Below, piece by piece: positions 14,298 through 25,989 of a DNA stretch of 64,000 nucleotides. The notes beneath the pieces were generated by a model. The model did not search any database. It was not told where the DNA came from and saw only the letters and a list, made by a program, of their open reading frames with translations. The stretch is from Nannochloropsis salina CCMP1776 (taxonomy: Eukaryota; Sar; Eustigmatophyceae; Eustigmatales; Monodopsidaceae): positions 294,541 to 358,540 of the forward strand of contig SDOX01000018.1 of assembly GCA_004565275.1 (NCBI GenBank). The letters run 5' to 3'. A program made the position numbers and the translations under genes. Within the stretch, counting starts at the first letter, position 1. Every line of letters starts with the position of its first letter.

Positions 14298-17200
14298 TTA
14301 CCGCTTAGCAAGTCGCGAAGACGATGAGGCTGTCGCCGACGTCAGTGTCGAGGCCCTGCTCAGGGTGCTAGTCGTCGCCCCGGGTCCCACCGCGCTGGCG
14401 CAGCTACTTCCGTCTTGCCCAACCATATGGAGGTTCCGACGGGCTTGTCCGAGCTCGCACTTGTTGACCTGGCTGGCGAAACGCAGTGTGCACAAAGACT
14501 CGAAGTAGGATTGCTCGGTGGGAGAGAGATTGATCATCATGAGGGTCTTCCCGTCCCCCGAAAGACATTGCTGCAACAGGTAGGTCAGTTTGCTGTTGCG
14601 GTAGGGCACATGTGCCTGCTTGTTGGCGATGGCCACGAACACGTCTGTGAGAGCACTTAGGCTCTTATTGATCGCCTGTGTTTCTTTGAGCCGCTCCCCC
14701 GTTGCGTTCGACCGGCTTAACCTCTCCGAGCCCGCCAGATCACAAAGGTTCAGCTTCCCACTGAGCTGGGAGCGTCGCTCTTTATTTGATGCACGCATGT
14801 GGAGTGTGAAAACAGAGTGGGAACGAGAGCTTCGCTCGTTCATGGACGTCGCCCCTACAGATCGGTGTCGGCCTGCTACGTCCATTATGCGCTGCACAGC
14901 CTGAGGGTCGTTAGGGTCGAGCTGGATCATCGCCACATCCGTCACAAACATGTTCCCCTTTCCGTCCTTTTTGATGTCATGCGTGGTGCTGGTGCTCTCC
15001 TCTCCGGCTCCTCCGTTGGGGGGTGCAAGGCTCCGCAGCAGGTCTCGGATCTGCTCCTGGTAGATCTCAATGAAAGAGACCTCCATCTCATATAGCCAGC
15101 CTTGAGCCTCCAGCATTTTCTTGTACCGCCCCACCTGTTCCATAGCACGGGGAATGATCCCTTTCATGGGCCCCGACCCGAAGCCCTGCATCGTGTGCGT
15201 CTTGCCAGAGCCTGTCTGGCCGTAGGAGAAGAGGCAGACGTTGTAGCCGTCGAGCGCGGACTGCACGAATTCTGATACCTCAGCAAAAACCACTTCCTGC
15301 CCCGCTGAGGGGGGAAAGCAACGGTCAAAAGTGAATCCATGGCTTTCCAAGACATTTCCATCGCTGCTCCCGTCCTTTTTCAAGATGGCGAGGCTGTCGT
15401 CATGCGCGCTCACGTTGATGCAGTGCTGAGCGGAAGCGTCGACTTGATCTGAGGGTAAGAATGGTCGCACGCGGGCGTACACGCGCACGTTGCCTCGCAG
15501 TTCTTGGATCAGGTTGTGCATTTTTCGTCGCTGAAGCTCGCCCTCCTGCACGGCTTTCTCCAGGTCCGACACTTGCTGTCGATACTTTTCCGCGCCCATC
15601 TCCCGGTCCCTGTCCGCCTCCAGCAAACGATGCCGCAGGACCTCAGCCTCACCAGAGATCTGCGCCAGCTCCTGAAGCTGCTCGGTTCGAGATTCTGCAT
15701 CCTCAAGAGCCCGACGTAAGGTCTTCAGCTCGCTTTCTAGGGTCATCGCTGTTTCCTGTGCGTCACGATTCTCCCGCAGAAGCCTCTCTCGTTCTTGCTC
15801 GCCATCCTGGGCGCGGCGCTCCCACTCCTTGACGGCCTCCATCTTCTCCGCACGTTGATTTTCCATCTCTGTCCCATAGGCTTGCTGCATGGCCAGCAAC
15901 TGAGCATTTGCGGCCACGCGTTCTTCCCGCTCTTCCGCCTCCTTCCCCTCGGCCCGCGATCGCAGCTCCTTCTCCACAGCCAGGGAGGCTCGGAGTTCTT
16001 GCAAGGCGGCTTGCGCTTCCTGAGCGGCGTTGAAGTGGGCCTTGGCCTCCTCCCGCTTGGACGCCAGCTCGACTTTCAGGGCTGTGCCTTCTCCCATACT
16101 TGCTGCCATTCCGGTCCGCAATCGGCTCATTTCCCCCTCCAGATCGCTCACTTTCGCTTCAGCACGCAGTACGCGCTCCTCCCCGTCCTTCCCGGCCTGC
16201 CGGAGCTCCCCCTCTCGTTCTTGCGCGGACCGTTGCATATCTGCAAAGGACTTCAAGGCCATGAAAAGTTCCTTGTTTTTCTCCTCCAGAATTTTCTGGG
16301 TGTCTTCTAGCTTGGTTTTCAGCGCCATAGTTTCTGCCTCTGCTGCGCTCCTAGCGACCTCGCTCTCCCGCCTCATGGCCTCCTTCCCGATAAGCTCTTG
16401 CTGCACCTCGCTCAAGCGTCTTTCTGCCTCCAAACGGGTTTGAGCCAGCTCATCTTGCCGCACAGCCAGGGTTTCTCGCAATTCTTTGAGTTCCTCTCCC
16501 AGTCTGACACTCTCTGCCTCCAAGCGCTCGCGTTCTTTCGCCTCGACCGCCGAGCGGCCTTGCACTTCCTTCAAATTCCCAGAAAATTCTGCCACCTCTA
16601 TCTCGAGCGCTGCTTTCATTTCCTTCAAGTCGTCTCTCTCCACTCGCACGCCTTCTAATGCGATCTTGATTTCGCTCAATTCGCCGCTCAAACCTTCATT
16701 TACCGCCCGGGTCTCAGCAAGCTGCCTCTCCATCGCCCCAGCTACCTCAGCCTTGGCGAATTCGGCAGCGGCGGCATCATTCTTGCTCTTCTCCAATGCG
16801 CTCTGACTTTCGTCCAAGTCGGATTTGAGCCTCTCCATTTCCAGATCCTTGGTCTCCGCTGCCTCTGCTTGAGTAGCTGCTTGCTTGAGCGCCGATTCGC
16901 ACTCAGCGCGCAGGGCCTCCACCTGGCCTTCAACTGTCCGATTGCGCGCCTTTAAGTCCGTCACTAAGGCCTGCGCGATACGAGCGGTGCGCAACTCCGT
17001 TCGAAGCTTCATCTCAATGTCCACGGCCGCCTGCACAAATTCTTCTTTGTGCGTGAGGAGGCCAGCGAAACCTTGGCGGAGAGCCCGAATGACGTCGTCG
17101 CGCTTGGCGATTTTCTCCTTGTAGTCCCATTTATTGCTCAATGTAAGCTTACCCCTTGCCAAACTCTCCACCTTTGTCCGCTCCTCCTCCTTTCCGAAGG

Positions 17201-17654
17201 CATGGGAGGCGAGCTCCTCGATAGCACTAATCATTTCCTCTTGTTCGCGCTGCTGCTGATACACCTCTTCCTCCTCAACCGGCACCAACTCTCCCGCCTT
17301 GGTCGTCCCAGCCGCTGCTCCAGCGGCAGAATTACTTTCAATTCCATTCTTTTCGGCGGCGATACGTCGACGGGGAATAACCACGCCAGCGCCTTTGATG
17401 GTGTGGGCTTTCAGCGGCTTGGCCACCGCCGGTTGCAGCGTGCTTTCAATGGCAGCCGCAGGATTTTCTGCACCTGCTGGTGGAATAACAAAACCAAAAC
17501 GCGTTTTAGGGCCATTTCCGCGCTGGGGCCGGGTACTTAAGGGCTGGCGGTTGTTATCGATTGCCTTGGTGGTCTTCCGCATTTTTCCACTGTGGAGCTC
17601 TCCGTCCCCTTTTCCTGTAATCCGCTGCTGATCGGCCAGGACTTTCCTCTTCAT
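14298..17654 (-). CDS. Kinesin-14 (C-terminal motor, Ncd/KIFC-like)
   Basis: This is a minus-end-directed microtubule motor of 1118 residues. Residues about 1-110 are basic and disordered, a possible microtubule-binding tail. About 140-690 is one long coiled coil rich in Glu, Ala and Arg. The kinesin-14 neck LIQELRGNVRVYARVRPF joins the C-terminal motor (about 700-1060). Motor motifs are intact: P-loop GQTGSGKTHTMQG, switch I NERSSRSHSVF, switch II LNLCDLAGSERL, and KLTYLLQQCLSGDGK. The neck placed before the motor defines the class. Typical roles are spindle pole focusing and retrograde transport along microtubules. It is a single exon, with ATG at 17654. The Ser/Ala-rich tail after the motor is short. 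Confidence 0.93.
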   Translation of the reverse strand: MKRKVLADQQRITGKGDGELHSGKMRKTTKAIDNNRQPLSTRPQRGNGPKTRFGFVIPPAGAENPAAAIESTLQPAVAKPLKAHTIKGAGVVIPRRRIAAEKNGIESNSAAGAAAGTTKAGELVPVEEEEVYQQQREQEEMISAIEELASHAFGKEEERTKVESLARGKLTLSNKWDYKEKIAKRDDVIRALRQGFAGLLTHKEEFVQAAVDIEMKLRTELRTARIAQALVTDLKARNRTVEGQVEALRAECESALKQAATQAEAAETKDLEMERLKSDLDESQSALEKSKNDAAAAEFAKAEVAGAMERQLAETRAVNEGLSGELSEIKIALEGVRVERDDLKEMKAALEIEVAEFSGNLKEVQGRSAVEAKERERLEAESVRLGEELKELRETLAVRQDELAQTRLEAERRLSEVQQELIGKEAMRRESEVARSAAEAETMALKTKLEDTQKILEEKNKELFMALKSFADMQRSAQEREGELRQAGKDGEERVLRAEAKVSDLEGEMSRLRTGMAASMGEGTALKVELASKREEAKAHFNAAQEAQAALQELRASLAVEKELRSRAEGKEAEEREERVAANAQLLAMQQAYGTEMENQRAEKMEAVKEWERRAQDGEQERERLLRENRDAQETAMTLESELKTLRRALEDAESRTEQLQELAQISGEAEVLRHRLLEADRDREMGAEKYRQQVSDLEKAVQEGELQRRKMHNLIQELRGNVRVYARVRPFLPSDQVDASAQHCINVSAHDDSLAILKKDGSSDGNVLESHGFTFDRCFPPSAGQEVVFAEVSEFVQSALDGYNVCLFSYGQTGSGKTHTMQGFGSGPMKGIIPRAMEQVGRYKKMLEAQGWLYEMEVSFIEIYQEQIRDLLRSLAPPNGGAGEESTSTTHDIKKDGKGNMFVTDVAMIQLDPNDPQAVQRIMDVAGRHRSVGATSMNERSSRSHSVFTLHMRASNKERRSQLSGKLNLCDLAGSERLSRSNATGERLKETQAINKSLSALTDVFVAIANKQAHVPYRNSKLTYLLQQCLSGDGKTLMMINLSPTEQSYFESLCTLRFASQVNKCELGQARRNLHMVGQDGSSCASAVGPGATTSTLSRASTLTSATASSSSRLAKR

Positions 17655-22065: not shown

Positions 22066-23429
22066 TTAAGCACGAGAACCCTCTATGAAATCTATATCCC
22101 TGGTCTCCCATTTCGGGCGATGACGATAGTACATGCAGGCAATCTTTTTCTTCCATTTATCGTATATCTCATCAACCTTGGCTGGATCTGGCTCCGGCAC
22201 AGGCTGCCCCGCGGGCGCGCCGTACAGCGCCGCTATGTTCATGGGCGAGCCCACTACTGTCACCAAACGTACACGTTTCGGCACCAACGTCAGCCCACCA
22301 CCCCGGCCTCCGACGAGAAAGAAAGGAAAAGGGAGACAAGAGGATAAAGATCGCCAAAAGGAGGCGGAGCCGATAAATCGATACATACGCGTTGCCCCGT
22401 AGTGGAACATAGGGACTATATCGTACCCGTTCCGCAAAGCCTCACGGATGAAGCCCTTGCGAAGTTGCACCTGCTCTTTACACTTGCTTTGCAAGAACAT
22501 CTCCGCTACCCCCCCCACTACAATCGAGCAATGCTCCCCTTGCTGTCTAGCTTTAGCTACGGACTCTTTATCTGCTGTAAGCGCACCCCACTCGCCCATG
22601 AAAAAGCGCACGATGGGAAGGTGAAAAATTCCGCTGTTTATATAAATATAAGAGGATGCGCGTGATATGTAAGATATTGATTTTATATGCGTCCATAAGC
22701 AACGTCTTTATGGAGGAATGGAGCTCGAACCGACTCCCGCGTTTTCACATCCATATTAAGACCAGCACGATCTTGGATCTACAAATCTTAGTGTGCGTAC
22801 CTGTGTATCAGACAGAATATCTTTCCTCCCGGCACGACGTCCGACACGAAGTAAGCAGACAAGACAGGGCAGAGCGGGAGGATCCCGTGAGGGTGCTGCG
22901 CGAACATGTACAGCTTACGAGTATCCAGCTTCTCCTCCATAACCAGCGTCATTTCGAAATAGTTCGTCATTTCTCTAAACAACCACGACCGCTTCATGGC
23001 CGCAGGATTTTGATGCAGTTTTTTGACAGGAATAAGTGCTTGGCCCACCCAAACTCCCAGCAGAATTGAGGGGAGCACGCGATGGCCCAGGACGCCAAGG
23101 CCGATGACAATGTATAGCGCGGAAGCGACTACAAGATAGAGTGATGAGGCCATAAGTGCGAGGAATAGGACAGCACCCCAAGTCTGCAATCTGCCCCACA
23201 GGCCTGGAGGGCATGGATCAGGGCGCACCACAATTGGCGTCCCGGGCATATTCGTTGCTGGCGCCGTGGACCTCGACAAGTTGACAGAGGGTCCCGATGT
23301 AGTTGATGATGACACCCTTTCTACATCACATGCCATATCATGCCGTGTACTGGCCAAAATAAGCTCATCCTGCGCTAATGGAAGAGTGAGCGAGTGAGTC
23401 AAGTGGGACATTGTGCCGAAATTTTTCAC
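22066..23429 (-). CDS. DGAT2: Diacylglycerol O-acyltransferase type 2 (DGAT2)
   Basis: DGAT2 makes triacylglycerol from acyl-CoA and diacylglycerol at the ER and lipid droplets. Two exons are inferred: 23429-22801 and 22633-22066, with a 167-nt intron (GTACGC...AACAG). The split codon gives CLIHS|GIFHLPIVRFFMGEWGA, a conserved DGAT2 stretch. The protein is about 398 residues, or 392 if ATG 23411 (MSHLTHS) is used. A hydrophobic hairpin (about residues 80-125) precedes the catalytic HPHG in MFAQHPHGILPL. Further family blocks are VVGGVAEMF, FIREALRNGYDIVPMFHYGA and a closing VVGSPM plus VDEIYDKWKKKI. The FIGSASFWRSL stretch after HYGA is longer and less conserved than usual. Stramenopile oil algae carry many DGAT2 paralogues, so the exact orthologue is uncertain. 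Confidence 0.9.
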
Positions 23430-23615
23430 CTTTCTCTTGTTCTACACAAACCACCTACCAAGAGCTTGATTGTTCTGACTTGTAGTCGTAGCACCCATAA
23501 TTGTGCATTGAGTAACTGCAGACAATCGGATCCCTGGACCGGTGTTCTCACACCCACCGTTTGTTCCTGCTTGTGAATGCGAGCGACGTCACGTTTTCTG
23601 TGGGACTCCTTGTTC

Positions 23616-23647
<32 letters not shown>

Positions 23648-24195
23648 CGATCCATGGTATTGTAACGAGCAAGCAATGGTGAAGATTCTAATTTTATTGG
23701 CAAAATGCCAAACTTTGAATATTATCCTCGTGAAATAGTGAAATCCTGTAGCATACCGGGTGAACAACACGGGCAAGCATGTGAAAGCGGGCGCACTGAG
23801 ATGCGTGAAGGACCTGTTCGGCGACGTCACCCTTCCGTTCCGATCTGTCCATACAGACTTGCCTTGCCTTGCTTTCCGCGTAGCACGATCCCCATAAGGC
23901 ATTTTCGATTCAAAAAACCGAAAGAGGGGTGGAACAGTACTCTCACAGATTTTTTCAGAGAAGACTTGCGCACGTCCGTACTCAGTCTGCGTGTCATAAT
24001 CCTTCGTTCTGCCTCACCCAATTTTGTGGAAACACACACCTTTAGCTCTAACCTCTATCAAAACCAATGTGGTTATCTAATCAGAGAAGATCCGCGAGTC
24101 TACTTGGTTGGCGGCTCACACTAACAATAAAGCAAATGTATTTGTATCGCTTCATATGTTCTTGGTTGAAATGCAAGGGATCTTTTGCACATATC
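23430..24195. other. Intergenic with a CAA microsatellite
   Basis: This lies between the DGAT2 start and the GEX1 stop, on tandem minus-strand genes. Apart from the trinucleotide repeat listed separately, nothing is recognised. Open frames of 139 (+) and 158 (-) codons lack domain features, and the minus one owes a poly-Leu tract to the repeat. Confidence 0.5.
23615..23648. repeat. (CAA)n microsatellite, about 11 units
   Basis: A perfect run of CAA trinucleotides, 34 bases long, lies about 190 bp upstream of the DGAT2 start. It is noncoding in the gene models given here and is likely polymorphic. Confidence 0.95.
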
Positions 24196-25989
24196 CTATT
24201 CACTGCTCTCGGACAAAGTCTCAAGGATTCCTCGATTCGTCAATAATCTACGACAAGACTTTCCAGAGCTGTCGAAACTGAATGACGTTCGGGACTGTAG
24301 ACGTGCGGAACGTCGCTGGGGAGTAAAGTTACCATCTTCGCTGCTACAAACGCTGTGAAGAGGAGTGACTAGGCCTGAGTAAGACGAAGATGCCGCATCC
24401 AGTGGCTGAGTGTATGAGCCTGCCGACAGTGAAATGGCTCTTCCTATTCCCTTAACACCTTCACATTTTCTTCTAACACCCTTTTTCACTTGTGTTCCGG
24501 TTCCTCCATGCACAACTTTCTGCAAAACAGCGCGCAGCCTCATCTCTTCTGTATCGCCTAATCGCCTATCATTACAAGTGTTCTCACTCGCGTCGCCGTA
24601 CTCACTACTGTTTGATCCTTCAATATTTCTACCTGTGATAATCTGCCACATGGTTCTCGATGGCTTCCTTATTCGACGCCAGAGGGAAAGAAGAACGCCG
24701 ACAACGGCTAGGGAGTGCAAGATGCGAATCCCTTCGCTACCGCCGTCGAACAATGTGTCCAAAATGACAAGCACTTTTGATGAAAGCAAGCTTGGCGATA
24801 GAATGTACCGCGCAGCTACAAATACGCTGTGGACCACACTTACCAAGGTGGTCAGTAAAATTGCCACGGCAGAGCACTTACTTGCATAATACTCCGTGGT
24901 GGCAGGTGCGAGTATCCAACATGCACCCACACACACTGCCATTGAAGCCAGTCGCCCACCATATAAAGCAATGTCCAGGATAACACAAGCTTGCCGCAAT
25001 ACCTGTTTGACTAGGTTAAAGCGCTGGGATTCCTTCACGAACTCTTCCTCTATACGCATGGTGAAATCGCGGACTTCTTCGTTGGCTCGTTGTAATCCAG
25101 CCAAAAGTTCCTTTTGTCGCTGTATATTAGACTCTTGCATGTCTAGAAGAGCCTGATACTGCTCCCCAATGGCTCCGAAGCCTGTTTCAACTTCATCGGT
25201 AAGACGGCTAAACTGTATCGTCGACGCTTCCAGACCTGCATGCAATTGATGCTGGGAGTCTGCTAGGTCCTTCTGGAAAAGCGTCGACTCCTGTTGGTTC
25301 TTTAAGAGTGTGTTTTGCACATGTGCCGACTCCCCCAGAAGAGTCACCGCCTGCAGACTGCTTTGTCCCAGCTTGTTGATGAGAAGTTCAGTCTGTGTCT
25401 GCCATGCATCTGTTTGCAGGCTGGAGCAATAACTGTCCGCAAACAGGAACAGATCGGTGTACGTTGACCATGCAGCATCTCCTTGCACTCTTTTTAGACA
25501 GTTTCGCACGTCTTTCTCCCTCTCTGGACATCGCACGGGCTGGCGGCCCCCCTCCTCGAGATGGCAGCTAGCCAGATGTAATGCGATTCTTTGTTTAGTC
25601 GGCATATCCATATCCTTACACGACGAAGCTAGAAGACGCATTGCTTGACGCCAACAGATGCTGAACCGGTTGTTCGGCTTGGCTCCACTTCCTTGGCTCC
25701 CCTCGTGCAAAGCACGGTCTTGTTCTGCAATGAGCCAACCGTACTGCTTATGAAAGGGCTCTGGTAGGTTTTCTTGTGCTGGTTTTGGTAACGAAAGCGG
25801 CGCATAACTGCTTGCCTCGATACTAGATAAAGATGAAGTGGTCAATGTGCTGGAAAGAGGGCTGGAATGGCCTGCCCCTGAACCAAAAAACCACGCTAGG
25901 AGACGGAAGGAGTATGTCGTCTGCAGCATTGTAGCTACAGCGATTCCCGACAGGGCCAAACTTCCGCCAAACTGGGTGTAAATCTGCAT
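24196..25989 (-). CDS. GEX1: GEX1/KAR5/Brambleberry-family nuclear fusion (karyogamy) protein
   Basis: Proteins of this family sit in the nuclear envelope of gametes or zygotes and are needed for nuclear fusion (yeast Kar5, zebrafish Brambleberry, plant and Chlamydomonas GEX1). The 597-residue product has the family layout. A hydrophobic N-terminus (about residues 8-36) is a possible signal. The Cys-rich domain (about 110-205) has the conserved pattern FSICWRQAMRLLASSC, IALHLASCHLEEGG, a CPEREKDVRNC pair, then YTDLFLFADSYCSSLQTDAW. A coiled coil follows (about 215-350). Three C-terminal hydrophobic helices come next (about 365-382, 390-412, 440-458) and then a Ser-rich tail. It is a single exon, with ATG at 25989. 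Identification rests on Cys spacing and architecture, since overall identity in the family is low. A different nuclear-envelope coiled-coil protein is the alternative. Confidence 0.8.
   Translation of the reverse strand: MQIYTQFGGSLALSGIAVATMLQTTYSFRLLAWFFGSGAGHSSPLSSTLTTSSLSSIEASSYAPLSLPKPAQENLPEPFHKQYGWLIAEQDRALHEGSQGSGAKPNNRFSICWRQAMRLLASSCKDMDMPTKQRIALHLASCHLEEGGRQPVRCPEREKDVRNCLKRVQGDAAWSTYTDLFLFADSYCSSLQTDAWQTQTELLINKLGQSSLQAVTLLGESAHVQNTLLKNQQESTLFQKDLADSQHQLHAGLEASTIQFSRLTDEVETGFGAIGEQYQALLDMQESNIQRQKELLAGLQRANEEVRDFTMRIEEEFVKESQRFNLVKQVLRQACVILDIALYGGRLASMAVCVGACWILAPATTEYYASKCSAVAILLTTLVSVVHSVFVAARYILSPSLLSSKVLVILDTLFDGGSEGIRILHSLAVVGVLLSLWRRIRKPSRTMWQIITGRNIEGSNSSEYGDASENTCNDRRLGDTEEMRLRAVLQKVVHGGTGTQVKKGVRRKCEGVKGIGRAISLSAGSYTQPLDAASSSYSGLVTPLHSVCSSEDGNFTPQRRSARLQSRTSFSFDSSGKSCRRLLTNRGILETLSESSE

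Follow-up and report, generated by a model that had tools for sequence, protein, structure and literature searches.

We identified an intact, single-copy gene of the GEX1/KAR5/Brambleberry family in the window, by which we mean the whole 64,000-nucleotide stretch of DNA analysed here. The gene is conserved in related algae and shares its genome with candidate meiotic genes. Judged by profile comparison, its 597-aa product is a homologue of GEX1, KAR5 and Brambleberry, and so a further member of an already known family. We consider it likely that the protein is a nuclear-envelope fusion factor of the GEX1 family, kept for a rare and unobserved sexual phase. An intact and conserved GEX1 supports a hidden sexual cycle without proving it. 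An earlier note on this DNA had taken such a gene, should the alga belong to a group described as asexual, as an argument that mating still occurs; its intactness does argue for retained function, but not that mating takes place.

Gene model and family assignment

The gene lies on the minus strand and runs from ATG to TAG at exactly the position, and with exactly the intact 597 codons, that the earlier note had given. The features of the gene and its product are as follows.

24196..25989, minus strand: GEX1-family ORF, 597 codons plus stop, one open frame, single copy in the genome
25885..25980, minus strand: N-terminal hydrophobic helix, residues 4-35, possible signal sequence (predicted helix, low pLDDT)
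25426..25656, minus strand: Cys-rich domain, residues 112-188, with six signature cysteines (alignment and profiles; pLDDT block means 80-91)
25000..25389, minus strand: central long-helix region, residues 201-330, presumed coiled coil (predicted helices)
24670..24984, minus strand: C-terminal membrane region, residues 336-440, with three (perhaps four) hydrophobic segments (hydropathy and predicted helices)
24289..24315, minus strand: basic motif RRSARLQSR, residues 559-567, near the C-terminus (kept in algal alignments)

Upstream of the ATG the frame stays open for 4 more codons, reaching 26001. By comparison, open frames in 20 mononucleotide shuffles of the window reached at most 269 codons. 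Using a codon-usage score trained on 8 other ORFs of the window, we obtained 0.031 per codon for the GEX1 frame versus -0.035 to -0.092 in the other five frames, with the final 100 codons of the ORF scoring slightly negative. The genome comprises 103 contigs totalling 26.5 Mb, with the window on C47, and a search of it with the protein returned one locus, the sole further match being short (32%, E 0.03).

Several neighbouring features were also noted. A kinesin with a C-terminal motor (residues 728-1065 of 1118) is encoded on the minus strand at 14298-17654, ~6.5 kb from GEX1. This is the kinesin-14 arrangement, a class that includes yeast Kar3, a karyogamy motor; since such kinesins also have mitotic roles, its nearness to GEX1 may be coincidence. 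Adjoining GEX1 is a diacylglycerol acyltransferase (DAGAT) fragment (22788-23429, minus strand; 25.6 bits, cut-off 22). The ORF at 22066-22611 appears by eye to continue this fragment, and the DAGAT gene therefore probably has an intron. Downstream of GEX1, ~550 bases past its stop codon, a run of CAA/AAC repeats occupies 23615-23648.

The family search was seeded with an inexact Arabidopsis GEX1 sequence, which returned 293 database proteins; many of those among the best 120 are named GAMETE EXPRESSED 1. From these seed matches we chose 28 aligned angiosperm GEX1 proteins as a plant set (A3), and the window protein was aligned with its homologues P0002-P0006 as an algal set of 6 (A2). A custom HMM of the 28 plant proteins, serving for the profile search proposed in the earlier note, placed the window ORF at the top of 913 window frames (E 5e-18; runner-up 0.25), and the Cys-rich part of this HMM matched all six algal homologues (E 5e-20 to 7e-15, for a small set). 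Profile-profile alignment of the 6 algal and 28 plant sequences with hhalign gave a probability of 98.6 and an E-value of 5e-16 over 173 columns, with a score of 128.9; the highest of 100 column shuffles scored 23.8, and the reversed alignment 27.7. The Cys-rich domain alone scored 93.3 (E 7.5e-17), the best of 50 shuffles reaching 20.4, whereas the profile-profile comparison of algal with plant membrane, coiled-coil or tail regions, each taken alone, was not significant. On these alignments it is the Cys-rich domain, ~100 residues, that carries the likeness to plant GEX1. The likeness is also visible between single sequences: phmmer matched the window protein with plant P0055 at E 8e-18, and the best algal-plant pair, P0003 and P0081, at 3e-20 (both from small sets). 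Searched against the whole genome, P0055, a plant GEX1, found the GEX1 locus (E 4e-15) as its sole significant place, the next reaching 0.05. Together, the plant HMM, hhalign, the shuffles and the genome-wide match bear out the GEX1-family assignment made in the earlier note.

No Pfam match above cut-off was found for the window protein or 4 relatives, and the Tht1 model (PF04163, the KAR5/Tht1 model) had no match in any genome searched, controls included; the window protein is not assigned to this model. Because none of the three plant GEX1 proteins scanned reached a Pfam cut-off either, the silence of Pfam on the algal protein is uninformative and points to a gap in Pfam. A sequence search of solved structures gave no match of note, fold comparison gave no significant match, and word-based searches started from the algal proteins led back to the algal set alone (5 of 7994 scored candidates in one search, counting the window protein itself, and 6 of 167 in another). 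While these blanks, and the confinement of the likeness to ~100 residues, are what could be said for an unrelated Cys-rich membrane protein resembling GEX1 by chance, we find that reading scarcely credible in view of the shuffle controls, the first rank among 913 frames, the genome-wide match, the direct pairwise matches of algal to plant proteins and the equal lack of Pfam matches above cut-off in the plant GEX1 proteins (3/3).

Protein architecture and conservation

The six signature cysteines (C112, C124, C142, C154, C164 and C188) correspond to C23, C35, C55, C68, C77 and C100 of an Arabidopsis GEX1 record, at a spacing of 12-18-12-10-24 here versus 12-20-13-9-23 there. Both the Cys-rich pattern that the earlier note had recognised and the alignment of cysteine positions that it proposed as a check held up, the six cysteines occurring at near-identical spacing. 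Across the 34 aligned sequences, C142, C164 and C188 are retained in all, C124 in 33 and C112 in 32. The gaps at C112 and C124 fall in P0004 and P0006, which have a shorter N-terminus and are without two and one of the cysteine positions, respectively. C154 is kept in all six algal sequences, and the corresponding plant cysteine, invariant in the 28 plant sequences, lies one column away. The domain is modelled as short helices. For yeast Kar5p, which is described as mostly ER-lumenal, all domains and the conserved cysteines are reported to be required for nuclear fusion, and six cysteines are said there to be conserved in every orthologue (excerpt of PMC4291462).

Beyond the Cys-rich domain, the structure model predicts long central helices at residues 171-268 and 276-360. 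The N-terminus of the window protein missed a hydropathy cut that those of P0003 and P0005 passed. Towards the C-terminus, three segments (336-354, 374-392 and 396-414) passed the Kyte-Doolittle cut, and helices are predicted at 369-396, 404-414 and 419-451. Among the 4 relatives tested, two have three such hydrophobic segments and two have four. The three C-terminal membrane helices proposed in the earlier note are thus plausible for the window protein, in which three segments pass, although the number varies between three and four among its relatives. Near the C-terminus, the RRSxRLxS columns are invariant in 6/6 algal sequences. By eye alone, this motif recalls YNLRxR at the end of plant GEX1; comparing the tails gave no significant result.

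The five further homologous protein clusters are unnamed or annotated as 'hypothetical', and one is labelled Nannochloropsis oceanica. Identities of P0002-P0006 to the window protein are 95, 52, 53, 44 and 39%, respectively. All five are counterparts of the window protein in related algae. P0003, the N. oceanica hypothetical protein VYU27_006157, is the nearest homologue that carries a species name, and the database search put it at 48% identity. The low-complexity tails differ. Comparing the window protein with P0002, we counted 30 differences, 3 of them within the 226 residues of the Cys-rich domain and helical core and 27 within the 371 residues elsewhere, so that the core has fewer changes (Fisher p 8e-4, on protein differences). 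This suggests that the core is under constraint between near relatives. When the relatives' DNA was sought in viral contigs, 7 pattern matches were obtained, none of which was a relative.

The closest characterised comparison is with plant GEX1 (Arabidopsis thaliana At5g55490). The two share the six-cysteine domain with its near-identical spacing (173 aligned columns, ~23% of them identical), long helices in the centre, membrane segments towards the C-terminus and a similar length. They differ in that overall identity is ~18-21%, cysteines 3 and 4 are one residue closer in the algal protein, the algal helical stalk is shorter and there is no measurable likeness outside the Cys-rich domain. Yeast Kar5p and fission yeast Tht1 are alike by the literature only, in having a signal sequence, six conserved cysteines, coiled coils and C-terminal membrane helices (excerpt of PMC4291462), while the Pfam model of Tht1 (PF04163) does not match the algal protein. 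Zebrafish Brambleberry is likewise similar by the literature only, with a Cys-rich domain, coiled coils, a nuclear-membrane location and a role in pronuclear fusion (passages of PMC10609895), but by description it has two membrane domains rather than three and also fuses karyomeres.

Meiotic and gamete-fusion genes in the same genome

Whether these algae have sex is disputed. The premise of the earlier note, that the group has been described as asexual, holds in print: the available text of PMC6610115 states that N. oceanica has lost meiosis and sexual reproduction, and lists as missing HOP1 and HOP2 for N. gaditana, and HOP1, DMC1 and MND1 for N. oceanica. On the other side, the available text of PMC8570151 infers cryptic sex from meiosis genes, while noting that sex has never been observed in eustigmatophytes.

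We searched the same genome for meiotic genes exon by exon and found candidates, of uneven strength, for all five of DMC1, HOP1, HOP2, MND1 and SPO11. The evidence for DMC1, SPO11, HOP2 and MND1 has some weak point in each case. The located matches referred to below are as follows.

G000:C14:308382-309176, plus strand: HOP1-like HORMA protein (L011; HORMA match 132.5 bits)
G000:C78:697691-697774, plus strand: HOP2/TBPIP candidate (L008; partial match above cut-off)
G000:C93:464825-465010, minus strand: topoisomerase VI subunit A-like protein, 641 aa (L006; TP6A_N and Toprim domains)

The HORMA match on C14 crosses two stop codons, which we read as marking an intron; for the ORF that holds the larger part of it, HORMAD1 was the sole solved-structure match below E 0.1 (9.6e-13). 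A second HORMA match was set aside as MAD2. For the HOP2 candidate on C78, the PDB search gave a TBPIP-family protein at E 0.011 and a HOP2 homologue at E 0.042, both weak matches, and the MND1 candidate on C21 is a partial match over cut-off (37.6 bits). These candidates suggest that the reported absences of HOP1 and HOP2 are annotation gaps, if the genome is that of N. gaditana or close to it.

The putative DMC1 gene on C29 consists of three pieces, which score 211.8, 50.6 and 139.1 with the DMC1 model versus 210.7, 34.6 and 109.7 with the RAD51 model. It is a DMC1 candidate by its summed scores, and its longest piece is closer to RAD51 than to DMC1 in the PDB. The best match of the DMC1 model, a gene on C6 (450 bits, over the cut-off), was dropped: it scores higher with the RAD51 model (524.8) and is therefore called RAD51, which is also its nearest PDB match. 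The stronger TP6A match, on C93, was rejected as SPO11 because it looks like topoisomerase VI subunit A (below NCBI cut-offs). The gene on C2 is called SPO11-like mainly because it is the second TP6A gene and a divergent one; in the PDB it is nearest to topoisomerase VI A chains (5.9e-7), followed by yeast SPO11 (3.3e-4).

The MutS_V model had 13 matches in the genome, with any MSH4 or MSH5 counted among them. Two Rad21/Rec8 kleisin genes (L026 and L027, on G000:C29 and C1) were above cut-off, and PDB matches did not distinguish REC8, which had been reported missing, between them. Neither HAP2 nor SPO22/ZIP4 was detected in genome searches run without a eukaryotic positive control. The search for HAP2, SPO11 and DMC1 proposed in the earlier note thus yielded candidates for the latter two but not HAP2. 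The missing HAP2 says little, because among stramenopiles HAP2 and GEX1 together are reported only from a bicosoecid, with GEX1 alone reported from Ectocarpus and other taxa (excerpt of PMC6678668).

Possible functions of the algal GEX1

If the protein acts in karyogamy, its C-terminal membrane helices would anchor it, with the Cys-rich domain and the helical stalk on the lumenal side of the nuclear envelope and ER. Where nuclei meet in a fused cell, it would help to join and fuse both envelopes, as do yeast Kar5p and Arabidopsis GEX1. The gene would then be retained in algae that are mostly haploid, with a rare and unseen sexual phase comprising cell fusion, karyogamy and meiosis. Counting against cryptic sex are the lack of any observation of sex (stated in the available text of PMC8570151), the argument for its loss (made in that of PMC6610115), the failure to detect HAP2 and SPO22/ZIP4 or to single out a REC8, and the weak points of the DMC1, SPO11, HOP2 and MND1 candidates.

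The main rival, which we consider unlikely, is a vegetative role for this GEX1 homologue at the nuclear envelope, perhaps at the nucleus-plastid junction. The protein would then fuse or remodel the envelope during mitosis, or do so where the ER joins chloroplast and nucleus, and sex would not be involved. The earlier note had described known members as acting only in nuclear fusion after gamete fusion. This is contradicted by Arabidopsis GEX1, which also fuses polar nuclei in female gametogenesis, and by zebrafish Brambleberry, which in the early embryo also fuses karyomeres (excerpts of PMC7586128 and PMC10609895); the family is therefore not bound to gamete nuclei alone. A vegetative role would also fit the nucleus-plastid continuum that persists through the Nannochloropsis cell cycle (excerpt of PMC6610115), the nucleus-plastid junctions figured for N. 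salina (excerpt of PMC12309347) and the unobserved state of sex in eustigmatophytes (excerpt of PMC8570151). Set against this, sexual reproduction is described as requiring the members characterised in yeast, Chlamydomonas, Plasmodium and Arabidopsis (passages of PMC10609895), the same genome retains candidate meiotic genes, and no result here directly indicates a vegetative function.

It is distinctly improbable, in our view, that the gene is a relic, left intact after a recent loss of sex for lack of time or through slow drift. The tail and membrane region do vary between near relatives, as a relic might, but changes between near relatives avoid the core, and homologues persist in divergent lineages with 39-53% identity to 4 of the 5 others and the Cys-rich domain kept. 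Very improbable, too, is a more specific form of the vegetative role, in which vegetative cells came to use GEX1 to form or keep up the ER junction between nucleus and chloroplast, so that a former karyogamy factor would now serve an organelle junction.

A karyogamy role in a cryptic sexual cycle thus remains our preferred explanation, and the interest of an algal GEX1 stems from the dispute over sex in Nannochloropsis/Microchloropsis. In the literature searched we found no report of GEX1 in Nannochloropsis or eustigmatophytes; the surveys of GEX1 by Ning et al. 2013 and Speijer et al. 2015 may list it. GEX1 marks nuclear fusion, a step separate from the recombination genes, which can have repair roles. 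Taken with the candidates for HOP1 and HOP2, it makes the published argument for a loss of sex less strong. It also offers a single gene to tag and delete in a search for mating, and crosses would help in these oil-producing algae.
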